A DNA stretch of 43,548 nucleotides, from contig JARLHC010000030.1 in assembly GCA_031292455.1 (NCBI GenBank), positions 1-43,548 of the forward strand, given 5' to 3'. Of the stretch, positions 12,931 through 32,595 are shown in pieces. The position numbers and the translations under genes are program-made. A model generated the notes under the pieces. It was not told the DNA's origin. It worked only from the letters and a program-made list of their open reading frames with translations, and made no database searches. Source of the DNA: Ignavibacteriaceae bacterium. GTDB taxonomy: Bacteria; Bacteroidota; Ignavibacteria; Ignavibacteriales; Ignavibacteriaceae. Every line of letters starts with the position of its first letter. Positions within the stretch are counted from its first letter, which is position 1.

Positions 12931-13650
12931 ATGAATATAATTAATATAGAACATATAGCTAAAATCTATCAGGTCGGAAGCGAAGAAGTATTTGCTCTTA
13001 GGGATGTTTCCCTTAGGATTGATAAGAATGAATATGTGGCAATAATGGGTCCATCCGGATCGGGCAAATCCACGCTGATGAACATACTTGGATGTCTTGA
13101 CACACCTACTTCCGGAAAATATGATTTTAACGGATTAAGTGTAAGTCAAATGAACGATAATCAGCTGGCTAAAATTAGGAATAAGGAGATCGGATTTGTG
13201 TTCCAGACATTTAATCTTCTGGCAAGATCCGATGCGGTCCATAATGTTGAGCTTCCTCTTATTTATGCAGGCATGCCCACTCACGAAAGGAAAGAAAGGG
13301 CTAAGCAGGCGCTTATAGATGTAGGCTTAACTGACAGAATGCACCATAAGCCAAATGAATTATCCGGCGGGCAGCGTCAAAGGGTTGCATGTGCACGAGC
13401 CCTTGTTACACGCCCCTCTATCATACTTGCTGATGAACCGACCGGTAACCTGGACTCAAAAACAGGTGAGGAAATTATGTCGCTTTTTAATGATATTTAT
13501 GAAAAAGGAAATACGATTATTCTTGTAACTCATGAGGAAGACATTGCCAAACATGCAGCCAGAATAATAAGACTAAAAGATGGTTTGATTGAAACCGATG
13601 CCCTTGTTGAGCACAGATATATCCCCAAACCAAAAGCTGCTGTAGTCTAA
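12931..13650 (+). CDS. MacB/LolD-type ABC transporter ATP-binding protein
   Basis: A 239-residue stand-alone ATPase of the MacB/LolD/FtsE class, which powers mechanotransmission exporters from the cytoplasmic face. Walker A is GPSGSGKST (residues 40-48), the Q-loop lies in VFQTFNLL, the signature is LSGGQ (144-148), Walker B is IILADEPTG (catalytic Glu169), and the switch histidine is in VTHEE. It starts 12 bp after the adaptor gene and ends 16 bp before the first permease. It is the only ATPase for three permeases in this operon, so it is probably shared. Confidence 0.95.
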
Positions 13651-13666
13651 TTAATAGGAAAAACCG

Positions 13667-14902
13667 ATGAATAAATTTTGGTTTGAATTCAGAGAAAGCT
13701 TGTTTATTGCTCTCAGGGCCATCAGGGGAAACAAAATGAGATCAATGTTAACTATGCTTGGAATTATTATCGGCATCTGGGCTGTTGTTGTAATGACAAC
13801 TGCCATCCGCGGTATTGATAATTCATTTAAGAACGGCATCAGCGCACTTGGCACGGATGTTTTATATCTTGATAAATGGGCATGGTTTACTAATCAGGAC
13901 TGGTGGAAGATAAAAAACCGCCGAAATATTACTATGGAGCAATATGACAAATTCAAGGAGATGGTGAAACTTCCTGTTGCCACTGCACCGGTAACCAATA
14001 GCAGGCAGACGATTAAGTACGGTGACAGGATGATCGAAAGTGTCTTTCTGAATGGTTCAACTGCAGATTACCTGAAGACTACAAATTTTACCTTCGATCT
14101 TGGAAGATTTTATTCCGACATTGAAAGCAAGGGTTCCCGCTATGTGGCAGTTATCGGGAGTGAAATTTCCAAGAACCTGTTTCCACGCGGCGATGGCCTG
14201 GATAAAACTATTAAAATAGGAGGAGTGGATTATAAGATAGTTGGAGTTCTTGCAGAGCAGGGAAGTTTCATACTAGGCCCCTTTAACCCTGATCAGCAGG
14301 TGTTTGTACCGATAGGTACTATATTCCAGAACTTCCAGGGACATTCAAATGGTACAATTACATTTAATATCCGTGCGGCCAGCCCGGCGATGGTGGAGGA
14401 TACGAAAGCTGAAGCTGAAGGTGTAATGCGGCAGATAAGAGGTCTGCAATATAACCAGGAAAATGATTTTTCGATCAACCAGCAGGAGGGTCTGATGGAT
14501 AATTATAACAAGGTGGTAGGAGTTATCCAGATTGCCGGTTTGTTTATTACAGGACTCTCGCTTTTTGTCGGTGCAATAGGGATCATGAATATAATGTTTG
14601 TTTCAGTTAAGGAAAGGACCAAAGAAATCGGGTTAAGGAAAGCAATAGGTGCAAAGAGAAGGACAATACTTGGTCAGTTCATACTTGAATCCTCAACCAT
14701 CTGCTTAATGGGAGGTATTATTGGAATGCTCCTGGCAATACTGACAAGCATGCTTATAAAACAATATATCTCAACATCTATAAGTTACAGCTCGGTTATC
14801 ATTGCTATAACCATTTCACTTATTACCGGAGTTGCTGCCGGATTTGCACCGGCCTATACAGCGGCAAAGATGGATCCCGTTGATGCCTTAAGGTATGAAT
14901 AA
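13667..14902 (+). CDS. MacB/FtsX-type ABC permease (first of three)
   Basis: A 411-residue permease with the MacB architecture. One membrane helix follows RGNKMRSMLTMLGIIIGI near residues 23-45. A large extracytoplasmic domain (about residues 50-280) carries a typical VAVIGSEISKNLFP segment. Three C-terminal helices include GIMNIMFVSVKERTKEIG and the end motif DALRYE. It lacks a fused ATPase domain and so must use the separate ATPase upstream. It is clearly more distant from the two permeases that follow than they are from each other, which suggests it is the other half of a heterodimer. Confidence 0.93.
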   Translation: MNKFWFEFRESLFIALRAIRGNKMRSMLTMLGIIIGIWAVVVMTTAIRGIDNSFKNGISALGTDVLYLDKWAWFTNQDWWKIKNRRNITMEQYDKFKEMVKLPVATAPVTNSRQTIKYGDRMIESVFLNGSTADYLKTTNFTFDLGRFYSDIESKGSRYVAVIGSEISKNLFPRGDGLDKTIKIGGVDYKIVGVLAEQGSFILGPFNPDQQVFVPIGTIFQNFQGHSNGTITFNIRAASPAMVEDTKAEAEGVMRQIRGLQYNQENDFSINQQEGLMDNYNKVVGVIQIAGLFITGLSLFVGAIGIMNIMFVSVKERTKEIGLRKAIGAKRRTILGQFILESSTICLMGGIIGMLLAILTSMLIKQYISTSISYSSVIIAITISLITGVAAGFAPAYTAAKMDPVDALRYE

Positions 14903-14905
14903 TTC

Positions 14906-16138
14906 ATGAAAATCGTACAGGCTCTGCAGTTATCAATACAATCATTAAGAGGGAACAGGCTAAGAACAATGCTGACTGTTCTTGGCGTTGTAGTCGGCAT
15001 CTTTTCAATAATTGTGATAATGACTGTAATAACAATGCTGCAGTCAAGTATTGAAAACGGAGTTTCACAGCTTAATAAAAATACATTCCAAATTCAGAAA
15101 TTCCCGGTGGTCATGGGAGACGGGCCGGGTTCAAGAGATAAATACAGGAACCGCAAAGATCTGACACTGGAAGATTATGACCGGCTTAAAGAATTATTGA
15201 CCATGGCCAAATATATCGGTGCCGAACAATGGCAGTTCGGCAAAGTAGTCAAATTCGGCAACCAGCAGACAAACCCTAATATCCAGGTAGCCGGTGTCAA
15301 TCTTGATGCAGTAAAAACGAATAACTGGAATATCGATTACGGAAGGGAACTTAGGGAAACCGATCTCCAGTATTCAAGCGATGTATGCCTTATCGGCGGT
15401 GAAGTAGTTGCTAAAGTATTTTCCAAAGTTTTCCCGATAGGCCAGACTATAAGAGTTGACGGACACCCGTTTCAGGTAATAGGAGTAATTGAAAAACAAC
15501 CCCAGCTATTCGGCGAAAGCAGGGATAACTATATTGTAATGCCCATAACTACTTTCCAGGGAATTTACGGCAGAAGAAACAGTTCTATCAATATTACTGT
15601 TACATCAGAAAGCAAAGAGAATTATGATGCTACAATTGAAGCTGCAATCGGATACATGAGGACGATCAGGAAAGTTGAAGCCGGAAAAGACAATGACTTT
15701 GATATATTCAGTAATGAATCTTTAATGTCAATGATTAATAACATGACTGACGGTGTAAAAATTGGTGCGCTTGCTGTTTCCGTTATTGCACTTTTGGCAG
15801 CAGGTGTGGGGATTATGAATATTATGCTTGTTTCGGTAACAGAACGAACCCGGGAAATCGGAATACGTAAAGCGATAGGTGCAAGGAAATCTAATATCCT
15901 TCTGCAGTTCCTGTTTGAAGCTGTAATCCTTTGCTTTTTCGGTGGAATTATTGGTATTATGCTTGGCATTGGCATAGGGAATCTGGCCGGATCTTTTCTG
16001 AATGCACAGGCTGCGATACCATATAATTGGGTGTTGATTGGCTTATCTTTATGCGTTGTTGTGGGCATAATTTTTGGTACTTATCCGGCGTACAAGGCAT
16101 CCAACCTTGATCCAATTGAAGCTCTCCGTTATGAATAA
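14906..16138 (+). CDS. MacB/FtsX-type ABC permease (second of three)
   Basis: A 410-residue permease with the same fold as its neighbour: first helix after RGNRLRTMLTVLG, an extracytoplasmic MacB-type domain, then three helices with GIMNIMLVSVTERTREIG, ending in EALRYE. It starts three bases after the previous stop. Its sequence is very close to the next gene (14906 versus 16217 products), with long identical stretches such as SIIVIMTVITMLQSSIENGV and DFDIFSNES. The two therefore come from a tandem duplication. Confidence 0.93.
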   Translation: MKIVQALQLSIQSLRGNRLRTMLTVLGVVVGIFSIIVIMTVITMLQSSIENGVSQLNKNTFQIQKFPVVMGDGPGSRDKYRNRKDLTLEDYDRLKELLTMAKYIGAEQWQFGKVVKFGNQQTNPNIQVAGVNLDAVKTNNWNIDYGRELRETDLQYSSDVCLIGGEVVAKVFSKVFPIGQTIRVDGHPFQVIGVIEKQPQLFGESRDNYIVMPITTFQGIYGRRNSSINITVTSESKENYDATIEAAIGYMRTIRKVEAGKDNDFDIFSNESLMSMINNMTDGVKIGALAVSVIALLAAGVGIMNIMLVSVTERTREIGIRKAIGARKSNILLQFLFEAVILCFFGGIIGIMLGIGIGNLAGSFLNAQAAIPYNWVLIGLSLCVVVGIIFGTYPAYKASNLDPIEALRYE

Positions 16139-16216
16139 TATTATTAGTATAAAATCTTATTCCATTCTTTACTATTTTTAGGACTGAAAAAATTTATATC
16201 AGTGTTTAAGGGTTCT

Positions 16217-17449
16217 ATGAAACTGAGCCAGATTATAGCAGTATCCCTGCATTCATTAAGGAGCAATAAGCTCCGTACATTTCTTACTGTCCTTGGAATT
16301 GTGGTAGGCATATTTTCCATAATAGTTATAATGACAGTAATAACTATGCTCCAGTCGTCAATTGAAAATGGGGTTTCATTCCTGAGTAAGAATACATTTC
16401 AGATAAATAAATTTCCCGCAATACATTCGGGAGGTCCCGGCGCATGGCAGAAATACAGGAATAGGAAGGATATTACCATTGAAGAATTTGAACGGTTGAA
16501 AGATGTAATGAAAACGGCAAAATATTTAGGGGCAGAACAATCGATCGGTGGAAAAGTTATTAAATCCGCAACAACTAAAACCAATCCGAATATATCTGTA
16601 ATTGGTGTTACAATTGAAGCTTATATGACGCACAATGTTACGATTGCAGAGGGAAGAACTCTTACTGACCTGGATGTTGATCACTCTACTTACTGCTGTT
16701 TGCTCGGCAATAGTGTTACTACAAAGATATTTCCAAATTCAAATCCAATAGGCCAGATTATAAAAGTTGACGGCTATCCGCTTCAGGTGGTCGGAACTTT
16801 TGAACCCCAGCCGGCATTATTCGGGCAGAACATGGACAGCTATATCATCATCCCGATTACTACCTATGGTGCCATGTACGGTAAAAACAACAGGAGTGTC
16901 AGCATTACTATAATGTCCAAAAGCAAAGAAGACTATGATGCAACTATTGAAGCCGCCATCGGCTATTTCCGTACAATACGGAAAGTGCCCCCCGGAAGTG
17001 ATAACGATTTTGATATCTTCAGCAATGAATCTATAATGGGACAGATAAATGATATTACTGGCGGTGTAAAAATCGGAGCTATTGCAGTTTCAATTATTGC
17101 GCTGCTTGCTGCAGGTGTAGGCATTATGAATATAATGCTGGTATCGGTTACGGAAAGAACAAGGGAAATTGGTATAAGGAAAGCTGTCGGTGCCAAAAAA
17201 ATGAATATACTTCTCCAGTTCCTTATAGAAGCAATCGCACTCTGTATTATCGGAGGCATCATCGGGATTATTATGGGAGTTGTGGTGGGGAATATTGCAG
17301 GGTCTTTTCTTAATGCAGAAAGCGCTATACCAATCAACTGGATTATTATCGGAATGACATTATGCGTTGTGGTAGGAGTTGTTTTCGGAACTTACCCTGC
17401 ATATAAGGCCTCTAACCTTGATCCTATTGAAGCTTTAAGATATGAGTGA
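16217..17449 (+). CDS. MacB/FtsX-type ABC permease (third of three)
   Basis: A tandem paralogue of the preceding permease, 410 residues from the ATG at 16217. An upstream GTG at 16202 would add five residues, but TAAGGG sits just before 16217 and the N-terminus MKLSQIIAVSLHSLRSNKLR then aligns without gaps with the paralogue. It shares GIMNIMLVSVTERTREIG and the end EALRYE. Differences concentrate in the extracytoplasmic domain, so substrate or partner specificity may have diverged. A 63-78 bp gap, the largest inside the permease run, separates it from the second permease. Confidence 0.92.
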   Translation: MKLSQIIAVSLHSLRSNKLRTFLTVLGIVVGIFSIIVIMTVITMLQSSIENGVSFLSKNTFQINKFPAIHSGGPGAWQKYRNRKDITIEEFERLKDVMKTAKYLGAEQSIGGKVIKSATTKTNPNISVIGVTIEAYMTHNVTIAEGRTLTDLDVDHSTYCCLLGNSVTTKIFPNSNPIGQIIKVDGYPLQVVGTFEPQPALFGQNMDSYIIIPITTYGAMYGKNNRSVSITIMSKSKEDYDATIEAAIGYFRTIRKVPPGSDNDFDIFSNESIMGQINDITGGVKIGAIAVSIIALLAAGVGIMNIMLVSVTERTREIGIRKAVGAKKMNILLQFLIEAIALCIIGGIIGIIMGVVVGNIAGSFLNAESAIPINWIIIGMTLCVVVGVVFGTYPAYKASNLDPIEALRYE

Positions 17450-24860: not shown

Positions 24861-25765
24861 TGGAAAAAAGCCAGGACTTCAGATCGTACCTTAATCCTGC
24901 TATTATATCAAAACTTAATTCACTTGAATTAAAAGCACGATTAGTTGTCGAAGGATTTATGGTAGGGCTTCACAGGAGTCCATATCACGGTTTCAGCGTA
25001 GAGTTTACACAACACCGCCCATATATGCAGGGGGATAGTCTAAAGGATGTGGATTGGAATGCATACGGCAAAACAGATAAATATTACATTAAGCAGTATG
25101 AGGAGGAGACTAACTTAAAAAGTTACCTCCTTCTTGATACAAGCAAATCAATGGGATATTCTTCTGAAGGAAATGTAACAAAACTCGAATATTCAGTTAC
25201 ATTAGCAGCCGCCCTTAGCTACCTTATGATTAAACAGCAGGATGCAGTAGGACTTGCTCTTTATGCCGAAAGGATAAATAAGTTCTTTCCTCCAAGGGCA
25301 TCCAAATCATACTTGCAGGAAATACTTAAAAGCCTGGCCATTGTAGAAGCTTCAGATAAAACAAATACAGCTTCTTCACTAAATTCAGTAGCTGAGAAAA
25401 TTAACAGAAGGGGACTGGTGATTATCTTCTCCGATTTCTTTGATGATGTGAATTCAACACTTACAGCACTCAAACACTTCAGGTATAAGAAAAATGAAGT
25501 GATTGTTTTCCATATACTTGATCCGATGGAGCGAAGTTTTGCTTTCGGAAAGGATGCAGTTTTTAAAGACCTGGAAACGGCTGAGGAGATAACCACTCAG
25601 CCATACCAGATTCAAAAAGTTTATAAAGAGGCAATGGTTGATTTTATAAATAAAATTAAAACCGAATGTTTTAATTCAAATATCGAGTACAATTTAATCG
25701 AAACATCCACCCCTTTTGACAAGGCACTCTTCAACTATTTGCAGAAGAGAACCATGCTTTATTAG
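24860..25765 (+). CDS. DUF58 family protein
   Basis: A 301-residue soluble DUF58 protein with a von Willebrand A-like fold. Family landmarks are HGFSVEFTQHRPYMQGD, DVDWNAYGKTDKYYIKQYEE and the MIDAS-like LLLDTSKSMG (DxSxS). DUF58 proteins often sit next to MoxR ATPases and vWA proteins in systems thought to insert metals or fold partners. No MoxR gene is present in this window, so the usual partner is missing locally. It is coupled to the TPR lipoprotein gene upstream and converges with the phosphohexomutase gene, overlapping by four bases. Confidence 0.88.
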   Translation: MEKSQDFRSYLNPAIISKLNSLELKARLVVEGFMVGLHRSPYHGFSVEFTQHRPYMQGDSLKDVDWNAYGKTDKYYIKQYEEETNLKSYLLLDTSKSMGYSSEGNVTKLEYSVTLAAALSYLMIKQQDAVGLALYAERINKFFPPRASKSYLQEILKSLAIVEASDKTNTASSLNSVAEKINRRGLVIIFSDFFDDVNSTLTALKHFRYKKNEVIVFHILDPMERSFAFGKDAVFKDLETAEEITTQPYQIQKVYKEAMVDFINKIKTECFNSNIEYNLIETSTPFDKALFNYLQKRTMLY

Positions 25766-27114
25766 AACATTTCTTTTATTTCGTTAAAATACTTTGTTGA
25801 AAGCTGTTCTGCTAAGTCCTTATTTCCGGCCTCTGTAATGATCCTTATTATCGGTTCGGTATTCGATTTTCTGAAATGAACCCAATGATCTGCAAAATCA
25901 ATTCTTAATCCATCCTCACTATTAAGATTTGCTCCCGAGTATTTTACGACTAATTTCTTAATTATAACGTCCGGATTTACTTTTCCTAATACAATTTTCT
26001 TCTTTGCAATAAAATAAGAGGGAAGTGTTAACTTAAAATCTGCTATGCTCCCTCCAAATTCAGTTAATTGCTGCAAAATAAGCGCTATTCCTACTAAAGC
26101 ATCCCTGCCGTAATGAAGTGCAGGATAAATAACCCCGCCGCTTCCTTCACCACCTATAATTGCGTTAACTCCTTTCATCTTTTTAACTACATTGGCTTCA
26201 CCTACAGCAGAACGATAGACTTTGCATCCGAATTTAGATGCTATATCATCTATTGATCTTGTAGTCGATAAATTAACAACTGAATTTCCTTTTTGCTTTG
26301 ATAAAATGAAATTAACGGCTGTAGCTATAGTATTTTCTTCTCCATATGGCGTACCATCATTGCTAATCAGAACTAACCTGTCCACATCAGGATCAACAAC
26401 AATTCCCAGGTCTGCCTTATGTTCGGATACTGTTTTCATCGTTTTGGTCAGATTTTCCGGAAGGGGTTCTGGTAAGCGTGTAAATATACCGGTTTTCTCA
26501 CAATCCAGCTCAATTACTTCACATCCAAGCTCTTTCAGAAATTCTGGGATTACGTATACCCCTGCTCCGTTAACACAATCGGCTACAACTTTGAATTTCC
26601 TTTTCCTTATCTGCTCAATATTTATATACTTAAGATTAAGCACATCATGAACATGTCTTTTTAATCCTTCCTCATAAAGAGTAAACTTTCCCAGCTGCTC
26701 CCAGGGAACAAAATTATTCTGTGCCGTATTAAGCAGCCCAAGAAGTTTAACATTTTCTTCAGGGGTCATAAATTGGCCTGTACTATTTAACAATTTCAGG
26801 GCATTCCACTCATTGGGGTTATGGCTTGCAGAAATTGCAATCCCCCCCTGTGCTTTTAATGTTTTTACTGTATACTGAACGGTAGGTGTCGGACATATTC
26901 CAATCTCTATTACATTTAATCCTTTTGCAAGTAATGTCCCTATGACTACAGATTTAACCATTTCTCCTGTAATTCTTGCATCCCTTCCGACTACAACTGT
27001 CCCTTTGCCAATAAAATCAGCATATGCCGATGTATATTTTACTAATACCTGCGGATCCAATCCATCTCCTACAATTCCCCTTATTCCCGATATACTAACC
27101 ATTAAAGTGGGCAT
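25762..27114 (-). CDS. glmM: Phosphohexomutase, phosphoglucosamine mutase GlmM-like
   Basis: A 450-residue alpha-D-phosphohexomutase. The four family sites are present: phosphoserine loop GIAISASHNPNEWNA with Ser97, metal loop DPDVDR (Asp241, 243, 245), sugar-binding GGEGSGG with Glu323, and the phosphate-binding FRKSNTEPIIRI near the C-terminus. Most likely it makes glucosamine-1-phosphate for UDP-GlcNAc synthesis, upstream of MurA in the pathway. A phosphomannomutase/phosphoglucomutase cannot be excluded, because the sequence has features of the archaeal-type GlmM/PMM group. It is transcribed alone. Confidence 0.85.
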   Translation of the reverse strand: MPTLMVSISGIRGIVGDGLDPQVLVKYTSAYADFIGKGTVVVGRDARITGEMVKSVVIGTLLAKGLNVIEIGICPTPTVQYTVKTLKAQGGIAISASHNPNEWNALKLLNSTGQFMTPEENVKLLGLLNTAQNNFVPWEQLGKFTLYEEGLKRHVHDVLNLKYINIEQIRKRKFKVVADCVNGAGVYVIPEFLKELGCEVIELDCEKTGIFTRLPEPLPENLTKTMKTVSEHKADLGIVVDPDVDRLVLISNDGTPYGEENTIATAVNFILSKQKGNSVVNLSTTRSIDDIASKFGCKVYRSAVGEANVVKKMKGVNAIIGGEGSGGVIYPALHYGRDALVGIALILQQLTEFGGSIADFKLTLPSYFIAKKKIVLGKVNPDVIIKKLVVKYSGANLNSEDGLRIDFADHWVHFRKSNTEPIIRIITEAGNKDLAEQLSTKYFNEIKEMF

Positions 27115-27214
27115 CTAACCTCCAAATTTGAAAATAACTGATACTAAAATATGAAAAAGAAATAATTATAAGGCATTAAATATCTGATAACTGATGTCAT
27201 ATTAAATAAAGTAG

Positions 27215-27472
27215 TTCCTATTTTTTGATTTCCAACCCGATTCAATTCCTGTTCATTATTATCATTCTAATGTTGACAGTGATGAAGTAATCTATTAAGT
27301 TTTTGGTGATTTTATGTCAGGGATAGGTGTTAAGGAAGGTTCGGTAACATTGCATCCAATAGGGATACCGCATGCACCTCAGTACGGTAAAACCGAAGCA
27401 TTCGTAGGTAAAAAAGAAACCAATGAATATGCAATTATGGTTGTTACATTTAATCCACTTAAAGTAACCTAA
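27215..27472 (+). pseudogene. hmgA: Remnant of homogentisate 1,2-dioxygenase (C-terminal part)
   Basis: Reading one frame from 27215 gives about 85 codons with one internal stop (TAA at 27296-27298, at a place where the family has tyrosine). The fragments DFQPDSIPVHYYHSNVDSDE and, after the stop, GSVTLHPIGIPHAPQYGK then KKETNEYAIMVVTFNPL match the C-terminal cupin of HmgA. That includes the YYH, DE and PHxP residues around the iron site. Full-length enzymes have roughly 380 residues; everything upstream of an in-frame TAG at 27212 is gone. The gene is therefore truncated and interrupted. It lies 58 bp before the aminotransferase gene, on the same strand. Family match is from memory. Confidence 0.75.
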
Positions 27473-27530
27473 ATATAAAGGAAACTATGGTGGGCTATTA
27501 TTCACATTATGGATAGAGAAAAAATAAATT

Positions 27531-28670
27531 ATGATACAAATTCCAAAACACGTAAAAAACCTTATACCCTATAAATCAGGGAAACCTATTGATGAACTTG
27601 TAAGGGAAAAGGGACTAAGTAAAATTGTAAAACTCGCTTCTAACGAAAATCCTCTGGGTCCATCACCCAAAGCTGTGGAAGCTATCAGGAAAAATATCAA
27701 TGAAATTCACAGATATACAGATCCTTCTGCTTACTCACTTGTTAATGCAATCGCTGCGAAAATAAATAAGAGACCGGGCCAGATTGTAACATGCAGCGGA
27801 TCCGATTCCCTCATTCAGTATTTAATTACTGCTTTCAGTGATGATGAAGATGAACTGATTACATCAGAAGGTACTTTTATCGGCTGGTATGTTAATGCTA
27901 ATAAATTTGGAAGGAATTCCATTTATACACCATTAAATAAATACCAACTTGACCTTGACGCTATTGCCAATGCTATTAATAAGAAAACAAAGATCATTTA
28001 CCTGGCTAATCCTAATAATCCCACAGGAACAATGTTCACCAAAAAACAATTTGAAGAGTTTATGCTCAAAGTGCCTGATAATTTGCTTGTGGTATTGGAT
28101 GAGGCATATTCAATTTATGCCGGATCTTATCCCGGCTACATCAATGGACTGGATTACGACCTTGATAATCTGATTGTATTAAGAACTTTATCGAAAGCAT
28201 ACGGACTTGCGGGAATCAGAATAGGATATGCCGTTGCAAAAGAATATCTGATTAAGGAAATGTATAAAGTAAAACTTCCGTTTGAGCCTAACTATCTTGC
28301 CCAGGTGGCAGCTATCGCTGCTCTGGAAGATGATGACTTTCTGCAAAAAATAGTTGCGCTAAACACACTTTCCCTTAATAGAATGAGAAAGAAGTTCGAT
28401 GAATTGGGAATAGAATATGTGCCCACGTATGCAAACTTCTTCCTTATGCTCTTTTCATCAGAAAAATTTGCCGTTGACTTTAATAATGAATGTCTTAACA
28501 GGGGGCTGATATTGAGACCCGTGAATAGCTTCGGAATTACAAATGGAATAAGGATAAATTCCGGAACCGGGGACGAAACTGAATTTGCTCTGAATATTAT
28601 CGAAGAGATTTATACAAAAATGACTGGTAGTAAATATAAAAACCATCCTGCTGAAGCAGGAATCATATAA
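27531..28670 (+). CDS. hisC: HisC-type PLP-dependent aminotransferase
   Basis: A 379-residue fold-type I aminotransferase of the histidinol-phosphate aminotransferase group. Landmarks are KLASNENPLGPSP near the N-terminus, LANPNNPTG (residues 158-166), LDEAYSIY with Asp190 and Tyr193, the PLP lysine Lys222 in RTLSKAYGLAGIR, and Arg230. It would interconvert imidazole-acetol phosphate and histidinol phosphate, but many HisC-like enzymes also act on tyrosine and phenylalanine. No other histidine gene is near. It sits between two decayed genes of the homogentisate type (27215-27472 and 28684-28998), so an aromatic aminotransferase role is a real alternative. A small hairpin (CCTGC-TGAA-GCAGG) lies at its 3' end but has no T run. 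Confidence 0.87.
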   Translation: MIQIPKHVKNLIPYKSGKPIDELVREKGLSKIVKLASNENPLGPSPKAVEAIRKNINEIHRYTDPSAYSLVNAIAAKINKRPGQIVTCSGSDSLIQYLITAFSDDEDELITSEGTFIGWYVNANKFGRNSIYTPLNKYQLDLDAIANAINKKTKIIYLANPNNPTGTMFTKKQFEEFMLKVPDNLLVVLDEAYSIYAGSYPGYINGLDYDLDNLIVLRTLSKAYGLAGIRIGYAVAKEYLIKEMYKVKLPFEPNYLAQVAAIAALEDDDFLQKIVALNTLSLNRMRKKFDELGIEYVPTYANFFLMLFSSEKFAVDFNNECLNRGLILRPVNSFGITNGIRINSGTGDETEFALNIIEEIYTKMTGSKYKNHPAEAGII

Positions 28671-28683
28671 TAATTTAATATAA

Positions 28684-28998
28684 ACCAGGGAGTGGGTAAT
28701 TCAATCTGTTACTTTTATTATGGAGAAGCAGGTATGTCTTGCTTCTTCAGTATACCTCCCGAAGATAAATGAATTTGAGAAAAGCGGCTTTACCGCGATT
28801 CCTTCAAATATAGTTAGACTATTCCGGGTTAAAGAATCTCCTATACAGATGGAATGTAAATTCATGTAAATGATAAATGTCGGCGAAGAGGGCGGATCAG
28901 CAAATATTGCTGTTTATGAAGTAGAGGTGCTTGCATATCCCGAATCTTTATCACAATTTTACAATATAAAACCATTAAACAATTGTCCGGGACAATAA
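28684..28998 (+). pseudogene. Remnant of a flavin reductase-like (FMN-binding) protein
   Basis: One frame from 28684 to the TAA at 28996-28998 gives about 104 codons with one internal stop (TAA at 28866-28868). The text includes QVCLASSVYLPKINEFEKSG, FTAIPSNIVRLFRVKESPIQ and, beyond the stop, GEEGGSANIAVYEVEVL. This matches the middle of flavin reductase-like split-barrel proteins, where NEFEKAG, IPS and RVxESPVQxEC are typical. Both ends are missing relative to a family length near 200 or more residues. In Bacteroidota such proteins often neighbour homogentisate dioxygenase genes, which agrees with the remnant at 27215. The family match is from memory. Confidence 0.75.
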
Positions 28999-29339
28999 TG
29001 AATTTTGAAAAAGAAATAATTGAAGATATCGTAATCGAAAAAGTTATTCTTAAAAGAGCTACTTATAAAGAAGCAGAGGAGTTCAGAAATCTTGTCCATA
29101 ATGATATTGAAGCAGGATGGCATAATATTGTTATCGATATGAATTTATGTGAATATATGGATTCATCCTTCCTGGGAGTTTTGATAAATTCGCTTAAGGA
29201 ATTGGAAAAGGTAAATGGTAATCTCAAACTTGCATCTGTTCATGATGATGCACAGACAATTCTTGAAATTACCAGGATGTCGGATGTATTTAATATCTAC
29301 CCGGATAAAGAAGAAGCCATCAAAAGCTTTAGGTCATAA
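28998..29339 (+). CDS. STAS-domain anti-sigma factor antagonist
   Basis: A 113-residue single STAS domain like SpoIIAA/RsbV. The phosphorylation loop is CEYMDSSFLGVL with Ser56 in the expected position; the usual DSSGLG has Phe in place of Gly here. Such proteins bind anti-sigma kinases or other regulators depending on phosphorylation. No anti-sigma kinase or sigma factor gene is adjacent. The start chosen (ATG at 28998) overlaps the stop of the flavin-reductase remnant (TAATG) and has GGGA five bases upstream; a TTG at 28983 is less likely. It could now depend on the promoter of the decayed locus. Confidence 0.87.
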   Translation: MNFEKEIIEDIVIEKVILKRATYKEAEEFRNLVHNDIEAGWHNIVIDMNLCEYMDSSFLGVLINSLKELEKVNGNLKLASVHDDAQTILEITRMSDVFNIYPDKEEAIKSFRS

Positions 29340-31584: not shown

Positions 31585-32595
31585 ATGGTAAACTTTGCCT
31601 TACCCAGAATTGATAATGACCCTGCTCTCCATGACCTCTTCCTTCCTTATTGCCGAATAAAAGAAGGGGAGATCTGGATTGATAAAAATGAAAAGCATAA
31701 AGTCGGATGCATAGATTCAGTTAATAAGAAGCAGATTGAAAAGCTGATGGGTGGAGAGAAAGCTGCTTTAGCTGTGCAGGATCCTCCTTATAATTTCGTG
31801 GCATTTGAAGAAAAAAAACTCTCTGAGTTTATTGATTGGTGCAGGTTGTGGATAAATATTTCCAAAGATATTCTTAAAGAGGATGCTTCACTTTATATTT
31901 GGCTTGGTGCGGACCAGAATAATCACTTTCAGCCATTACCGGATTTTATGAGGATGATGAGTTCTACAGGATTTACATCACGAAGTTTCATAACAATGCG
32001 GAACCAGAGAGGCTACGGAACACAAAAGAACTGGATGTCAGTACGACAGGAACTCCTCTATTATGTCAAAGGAAACCCAGGGTTTAACGTTGAAGCTGAG
32101 TATACTGATATTCCTAAAATATTAAAGGGATATTATAAAACTGTGAATGGTAAGGAAACTGATAACATAGAGAGGGGAAAATCTGAAAATATAAGAGCCG
32201 GAAATGTATGGGTCGATATTCAGCAGGTCTTTTACAGGATGGAAGAGAATGTAAATGGATGCTATGCACAGAAACCTCTGAAATCAATTGAAAGGATTGT
32301 TCAGGCTAATAGCAACAAAAGAGAAATTGTAATAGACCTCTTTGCGCATTCAGGCACTACGCTTATAGCTGCGGAAAAATTAGACAGGAAATGTTTCACA
32401 GCAGATATTGATCCTGTATATTGCGAAATTACTATAAGACGTCTGGAAAATTACAGGAATAATAATAAGTCCGGATGGCAGAACTCAAATCCCTTTGCAA
32501 AAGAAATTATAAATGATAAAAAAATTCTAAATTATCTTTATAAGAATTATAGCATTGATACTTCTTCAATTAAACCGAAAAAGATTGCTGTATGA
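31585..32595 (+). CDS. Orphan beta-class DNA methyltransferase (N6-adenine or N4-cytosine)
   Basis: A 336-residue site-specific DNA methyltransferase. The catalytic motif IV is DPPYN (Asp66-Tyr69) and lies before the SAM-binding motif I region DLFAHSGTTLIAAEKL (around residues 251-266) with ADIDP after it. This order defines the beta class, like CcrM. DPPY favours N6-adenine. No endonuclease, specificity subunit or Vsr gene is adjacent. It is wedged between ymdB (3 bp) and folD (ATGA overlap), so it is expressed with housekeeping genes, which suggests a regulatory or maintenance role rather than restriction. The recognition sequence cannot be read from the gene. Confidence 0.9.
   Translation: MVNFALPRIDNDPALHDLFLPYCRIKEGEIWIDKNEKHKVGCIDSVNKKQIEKLMGGEKAALAVQDPPYNFVAFEEKKLSEFIDWCRLWINISKDILKEDASLYIWLGADQNNHFQPLPDFMRMMSSTGFTSRSFITMRNQRGYGTQKNWMSVRQELLYYVKGNPGFNVEAEYTDIPKILKGYYKTVNGKETDNIERGKSENIRAGNVWVDIQQVFYRMEENVNGCYAQKPLKSIERIVQANSNKREIVIDLFAHSGTTLIAAEKLDRKCFTADIDPVYCEITIRRLENYRNNNKSGWQNSNPFAKEIINDKKILNYLYKNYSIDTSSIKPKKIAV

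Follow-up and report, generated by a model that had tools for sequence, protein, structure and literature searches.

The window analyzed here comprises 43,548 nucleotides of contig JARLHC010000030.1 from an Ignavibacteriaceae bacterium (assembly GCA_031292455.1, here genome G000). Its positions 27115-29000 are bordered by a minus-strand glmM-like gene (25762..27114) and a plus-strand STAS-domain gene (28998..29339), and hold one intact open reading frame with broken pieces on both sides. The glmM-like gene, which forms the left border of the site in relative G017 and others as well, reached 504 bits with the archaeal-type phosphoglucosamine mutase model TIGR03990 (cut-off 439) and missed the bacterial glmM model (199.5 bits, cut-off 447.55). 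On the right border, the listed STAS reading frame opens at a TTG (28983) ahead of the ATG at 28998 that corresponds to the start in relatives. Everything between these borders is on the plus strand. First comes an hmgA remnant (27221..27469) equivalent to residues 287-369 of 387, with an in-frame stop at 27296; the tail of this piece resumes in another frame and continues to about 27512, so a frameshift is present besides the stop. The intact gene follows (27531..28670), encoding an aminotransferase of 379 amino acids that is labeled hisC by TIGR01141 and that we assign below to the HisHb/HisC2-type aromatic aminotransferases. Directly behind it lies a flavin reductase remnant (28672..28923, residues 76-159 of 330) with two in-frame stops, one at 28681 and one at 28867; neither FAH nor the beginning of the flavin reductase is left ahead of it. 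The last piece (28925..28984) is a putative C-terminal tail of an acetoacetate-CoA ligase, resembling the C-termini of whole ligases in relatives. In a scan for promoters and terminators, 6 promoter-like sites were found vs. 9.4 in shuffled sequences, and the 4 terminator-like sites (1.1 in shuffles) were all on the minus strand and thus uninformative for a plus-strand gene. Elsewhere in the window, an N6/N4 DNA methylase gene (31585-32595, PF01555) is 82% identical to that of same-genus G001, and an ABC ATPase gene is followed by three consecutive MacB/FtsX-type permease genes (12931-17449).

The first-pass annotation of this DNA had proposed that HmgA and flavin-reductase-like remnants on one strand flank an intact aminotransferase, and tblastn with the proteins of relatives agrees. 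All 21 HmgA queries matched the first remnant (best 73.5% identity, E 7.6e-40), and all 12 flavin reductase queries, including one truncated where its contig stops, matched the second (best 59.5%, E 6.4e-29). Pfam and NCBIfam models barely detected either piece (Flavin_Reduct at E 0.039, below its cut-off, and no match to an HmgA model), so the proof rests on the relatives' proteins. By sequence similarity, both remnants are confirmed as real, in the named order and on the named strand, far above chance.

The idea that this is an eroded homogentisate/tyrosine locus was borne out in relatives, where a whole operon occupies the same site. Gene clustering of 23 relative loci, the histidine locus of G000 and the window gave the following order in G017: TPR, DUF58, glmM on the minus strand, an Nth-like gene, Lrp, hppD, hmgA, the aminotransferase, FAH, flavin reductase, acetoacetate-CoA ligase and STAS. 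G039 has the same order at the same site, without a recognized Lrp; in the remaining aminotransferase carriers, the operon is elsewhere or the contig ends short of glmM. The comparison with relatives that the first-pass annotation had suggested showed hppD, hmgA and flavin reductase next to the aminotransferase as complete genes in the same order. The window retains the operon's outer genes in place; FAH, hppD, Lrp and the Nth-like gene of the equivalent G017 site are absent from it. Genome-wide, no whole HPPD or HmgA turned up in G000 (96.7% complete): TIGR01263 had no match at 1e-10 and PF04209 none at 1e-3, PF04209 being a weak detector here that misses open HmgA frames such as that of G021. 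The HmgA of the G021 genus (L041 10063-11235), whose frame is open, stands farther from the outgroups over its C-terminal part (0.25 vs. about 0.16). In the operon of G089 (L252 9979-12974), the ligase directly follows FAH, and no flavin reductase was found.

Erosion has gone further in the same genus. In G001, only 130 bp separate glmM from STAS, and the ends of this gap resemble window positions 27120-27164 (83% over 46 bp) and 28925-28984 (85% over 60 bp), the latter being the putative ligase tail. No aminotransferase match was found in G001 at E 1e-60. With remnants in the window and near-total loss in G001, one genus thus shows the loss of the operon at two stages. The loss had been called recent; this stands in a relative sense only, the HmgA remnant still being 73% identical to its relatives, and no date can be derived from it.

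Across a set of 79 genomes, the aminotransferase (E 1e-60) was found in 17 and HPPD above its family cut-off in 21. Both occurred in 14, the aminotransferase only in 3 (G000, G016, and G042), HPPD only in 7 and neither in 55, a co-occurrence with a Fisher P of 4.6e-8 when kinship is ignored. Seven relatives carry an hppD-hmgA-FAH operon without the aminotransferase (L053-L059). All seven have an indolepyruvate-oxidoreductase-alpha-like match, vs. 0 of 14 genomes with both operon and aminotransferase (kinship again ignored).

Outcomes like that in the window were found elsewhere in the family. In a survey of 80 genomes, the aminotransferase was found at E 1e-110 in 25, and the locus was inspected in all 25; the survey was keyed on this gene, so that FAH, flavin reductase and ligase genes surviving as orphans fall outside the count. 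A whole hmgA lay upstream in 16 loci, an hmgA piece ran off the contig in 2 (G107 and G095) and the contig was cut earlier in 2 (G093 and G094). Neither hppD nor a whole hmgA stood beside the aminotransferase in the other five, namely the window, G042, G092, G016, and G108, which belong to five genera, and in each of these the aminotransferase frame is open (in G042 as far as the contig end). By contrast, HPPD was accompanied by adjacent HmgA and FAH in every one of 21 control genomes (0 of 21 without them).

These five loci differ in what is left. In G042 (L040 1087-1332), a deletion has joined the 19-codon start of hppD in frame to the hmgA end, from residue 326 on; this fusion contains one stop and directly precedes the aminotransferase. 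In G092 (L253 1786-4340, on a 5.5-kb contig), only Lrp, aminotransferase and STAS were found of the operon, with Lrp adjoining the aminotransferase. The neighbors on both sides in G108 (L257 8785-9954) are those of its congeners, and hppD, hmgA and FAH are gone. The G016 aminotransferase (L051 8918-10024) stands alone with no remnant found at the locus, and here a transfer or move of the gene is as likely as a loss. Genome-wide searches for HPPD found none in G042 and G016; G092 and G108 were judged at the locus only. In the aminotransferase tree, G042 and G108 are nested among operon-bearing congeners, and the window and G092 fall in a polytomy that also contains operon-bearing rows; G089, a congener of G092, carries the operon. 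Read by eye from this tree, the pattern would correspond to four separate in-place losses (G000, G042, G092, and G108). The putative ligase tail, the near-total loss in G001 and the apparently like outcome in four other genera go beyond the first-pass annotation. A search of titles and abstracts in one literature collection returned no report of repeated survival of the aminotransferase after loss of the tyrosine operon.

Selection on the surviving gene was assessed from relative rates at codon positions 1+2, measured against the copies that four near relatives have in whole operons, with 10 further reference sequences for the aminotransferase, 17 for HmgA and 8 for flavin reductase. The window aminotransferase showed no excess change (rate difference +0.001, 95% interval -0.014 to 0.016); both remnants did (HmgA +0.047, 0.009 to 0.091; flavin reductase +0.111, 0.061 to 0.17). 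Its end branch in the tree (0.32) is similar in length to those of the operon-bearing G043 (0.33) and G089 (0.31), and exceeds that of G017 (0.23). The remnants hold 3 stops in 167 codons; the same density predicts 6.8 stops over the 379 codons of the aminotransferase, which has none (P 0.001, assuming equal neutral time). As judged from these substitution patterns, the aminotransferase is shown to have been under normal constraint while its neighbors decayed. One could still suppose that the gene is a leftover that has not yet decayed and does nothing the cell needs, as the loss of the aminotransferase from G001 and the long branch of the G108 copy (0.37 vs. 0.19 for G109, and longer than its congeners) might suggest. 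Such idle persistence is nevertheless unlikely given the lack of excess change in the window copy beside two remnants that both have it, the lack of stops, and the open frames in five genera without adjoining oxygenase genes.

The surviving protein is a class I/II PLP-dependent aminotransferase (PF00155, 4.4e-56). Residues Asn163, Asp190, Tyr193, Lys222, Arg230, Arg329, and Arg341 do not vary among the 15 operon-type sequences; roles for these conserved active-site residues are given in PMC4703992, with positions paired by eye in a structure-match alignment. The hisC label comes from a TIGR01141 score of 304.6, above the cut-off of 276.55, and the HisC from the histidine operon of the same genome scores 349.2. 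That second hisC, which the first-pass annotation had suggested looking for, lies on contig C59 in a full operon (hisG, D, C, B, H, A, F, IE). It shares with the window protein the family and the NCBIfam label, but differs in its setting, in a Tyr/Tyr pocket, and in sequence, the two being 32% identical. Among 12 genomes tested for hisD, 6 gave no match, and 5 of these are aminotransferase carriers (G039, 78% complete; G043, 85%; G016, G007, and G018, 99-100%).

The pocket residues also separate the two types. Phe116 and Phe251 of the window enzyme are found in all 15 operon-type sequences, and Tyr/Tyr in 7 of 7 histidine-operon HisC sequences. This parallels the contrast between Tyr127/Tyr261 in HspAT and Phe110/Phe246 in ArAT described in PMC4703992. 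However, the PDB entries that match best bear the title histidinol-phosphate aminotransferase (3get, 196.7 bits; 3ffh, 166.6 bits), ahead of a phenylalanine aminotransferase (4r2n, 142.3 bits), and 3get and 3ffh likewise have Phe at both positions, so the pocket alone is not decisive. In a tree built by a quick method from 98 of 102 rows (four short homolog fragments were left out), histidine-operon HisC sequences fall on one side with a support of 100, and the window enzyme lies within a clade of tyrosine-catabolism copies.

Relatives in named genomes were found by a scan with the alignment, of which the best 80 of at least 590 candidates were retained; a scan with the single aminotransferase protein found none. 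The closest of these best 80 is from an Ignavibacteriales bacterium (67% identity, L136). Phe occupies both pocket positions wherever these homologs are aligned (75 and 78 of the 80, the rest being gaps). Genes for pheA, tyrA, aroA, DAHP synthase or serC lie near 56 of the best 80, HPPD, HmgA or FAH near 10, and none of these near 14. A tblastn search with seven histidine proteins found a his gene near only one of the 80, a hisA piece at the edge, and that homolog is among the 56 with Phe/Tyr-biosynthesis or serC neighbors.

That the window enzyme might be a true or back-up histidinol-phosphate aminotransferase is suggested by its TIGR01141 score above the cut-off, by the titles of its best PDB matches, and by the ability of HisC2-type enzymes to stand in for HisC: PMC11535334 describes PA3165 HisC2 as dispensable for histidine synthesis, yet a HisC2-type homolog as complementing an E. 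coli hisC mutant. We consider this very improbable in view of the hisC in the genome's own his operon, the carriers without hisD, Phe in place of Tyr at two pocket positions, the separate clade in the quick tree, and the single hisA piece near the best 80 of at least 590 named homologs. Because the genome has its own his-operon hisC, carriers lack hisD, the pocket is of the Phe type and the clade is catabolic, the window aminotransferase is very likely not a HisC. Almost certainly, it is instead an aromatic amino acid aminotransferase, with Tyr/Phe as the presumed substrate, which upholds the proposal that an aromatic enzyme rather than a HisC is the surviving member of the locus. It is scarcely credible that the erosion is an artefact introduced when a metagenome bin was assembled: the 171 contigs of G000 do indicate that it is probably a bin, but the site lies at 27-29 kb inside a 43.5-kb contig, its borders and order agree with same-genus G001 on both sides, and mis-assembly would not produce the stops and drifted codons of the remnants.

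The enzyme type itself is known already. In PMC1173090, HisHb of the pheA-hisHb-tyrA-aroF supraoperon is described as an aromatic aminotransferase close to, and sometimes identical with, the histidine enzyme. The window enzyme resembles HisHb/HisC2 in sharing its side of the tree, apart from his-operon HisC, in Phe at both pocket positions, in the hisC label, and in having aromatic rather than histidine genes as neighbors. It differs from the system as described there in having sat in a degradation operon (hppD-hmgA-FAH). Trp119 is found in 15 of 15 operon-type sequences, vs. Tyr in 61 of the best 80 of at least 590 named homologs. M. tuberculosis ArAT (Rv3772, PDB 4R2N), formerly annotated as HspAT according to PMC4703992, is similar in that its Phe110/Phe246 align with Phe116/Phe251 of the window enzyme in the 142-bit match. 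In an alignment read by eye, Asp92 replaces its Val86 and Gly118 its Leu112 in the window enzyme, and the operon differs. The homogentisate pathway hppD-hmgA-FAH is represented by P. putida work cited in PMC1173090. As in that pathway, hppD, hmgA and FAH form one operon in the relatives, and the window remnants are its parts. Unlike it, the relatives' operon adds flavin reductase, acetoacetate-CoA ligase and the HisC2-type aminotransferase, and the window copy is broken.

Taken together, we favor, with a probability of about 0.86, the explanation that the site is an eroded tyrosine/homogentisate degradation operon whose survivor, a HisHb/HisC2-type aromatic aminotransferase, has been kept for reversible transamination. 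Deletions to either side of a single gene have removed hppD, FAH, the greater part of both hmgA and the flavin reductase, and all but a trace of the acetoacetate-CoA ligase. The survivor would once have catalyzed the first step, from tyrosine (the presumed substrate) and 2-oxoglutarate to 4-hydroxyphenylpyruvate and glutamate, and may have been kept for reversible exchange between aromatic amino acids and 2-oxo acids, which would need no oxygenase. In about four lineages (G000, G042, G092, and G108), in-place deletions around the aminotransferase, with selection keeping the gene for some oxygen-independent task, could amount to a recurrent, parallel reuse of a catabolic enzyme; we hold this tentatively, at somewhat less than even odds. 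Points that weigh against the favored explanation as a whole are the TIGR01141 hisC call, the PDB titles, the complementation by HisC2, the absence of the aminotransferase from G001, and the seven operons without it.

Candidate roles for the retained enzyme were sought in the rest of the genome. Elsewhere in G000, genes for prephenate dehydratase, an aminotransferase, prephenate dehydrogenase and a DAHP-synthase-like protein lie in a row. A requirement for the window enzyme in Phe/Tyr synthesis is weakened by this biosynthetic cluster having its own aminotransferase, which also leaves the need for the window enzyme unexplained and so counts against the favored explanation. Indolepyruvate oxidoreductase was considered as a possible user of the product. 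None was found in G000 at E 1e-60, only G016 matched among the 17 aminotransferase carriers of the 79-genome set, and no match in that set passed the family cut-off, and this candidate was rejected. That G000 yielded no such user of the product is a further point against the favored explanation. Nitrogen exchange or keto-acid salvage may be the simplest remaining role for the aminotransferase.

The first-pass annotation had further suggested that oxygen-dependent tyrosine breakdown was lost on a move to anoxic life. As stated, this idea was rejected on gene presence: G000 encodes a COX1-family protein of 554 amino acids (C47), a second one of 747 amino acids, and cytochrome bd (C148). The 554-residue protein we take to be probably an A-type oxidase. 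In same-genus G001 (93% complete), a 742-residue COX1-family protein and cytochrome bd were found, and none of the 554-residue kind. As genes for oxygen respiration are present in G000, the loss of the pathway is not explained by the loss of such genes.

The automatic hisC label thus appears to be wrong for a whole enzyme class in these bacteria. It would mislead predictions of histidine synthesis, as the five tested carriers without hisD illustrate. The family also offers a natural series, from the whole operon to the aminotransferase alone to nothing, for exploring why a degradation pathway's first enzyme should be worth keeping after the pathway itself has disappeared.
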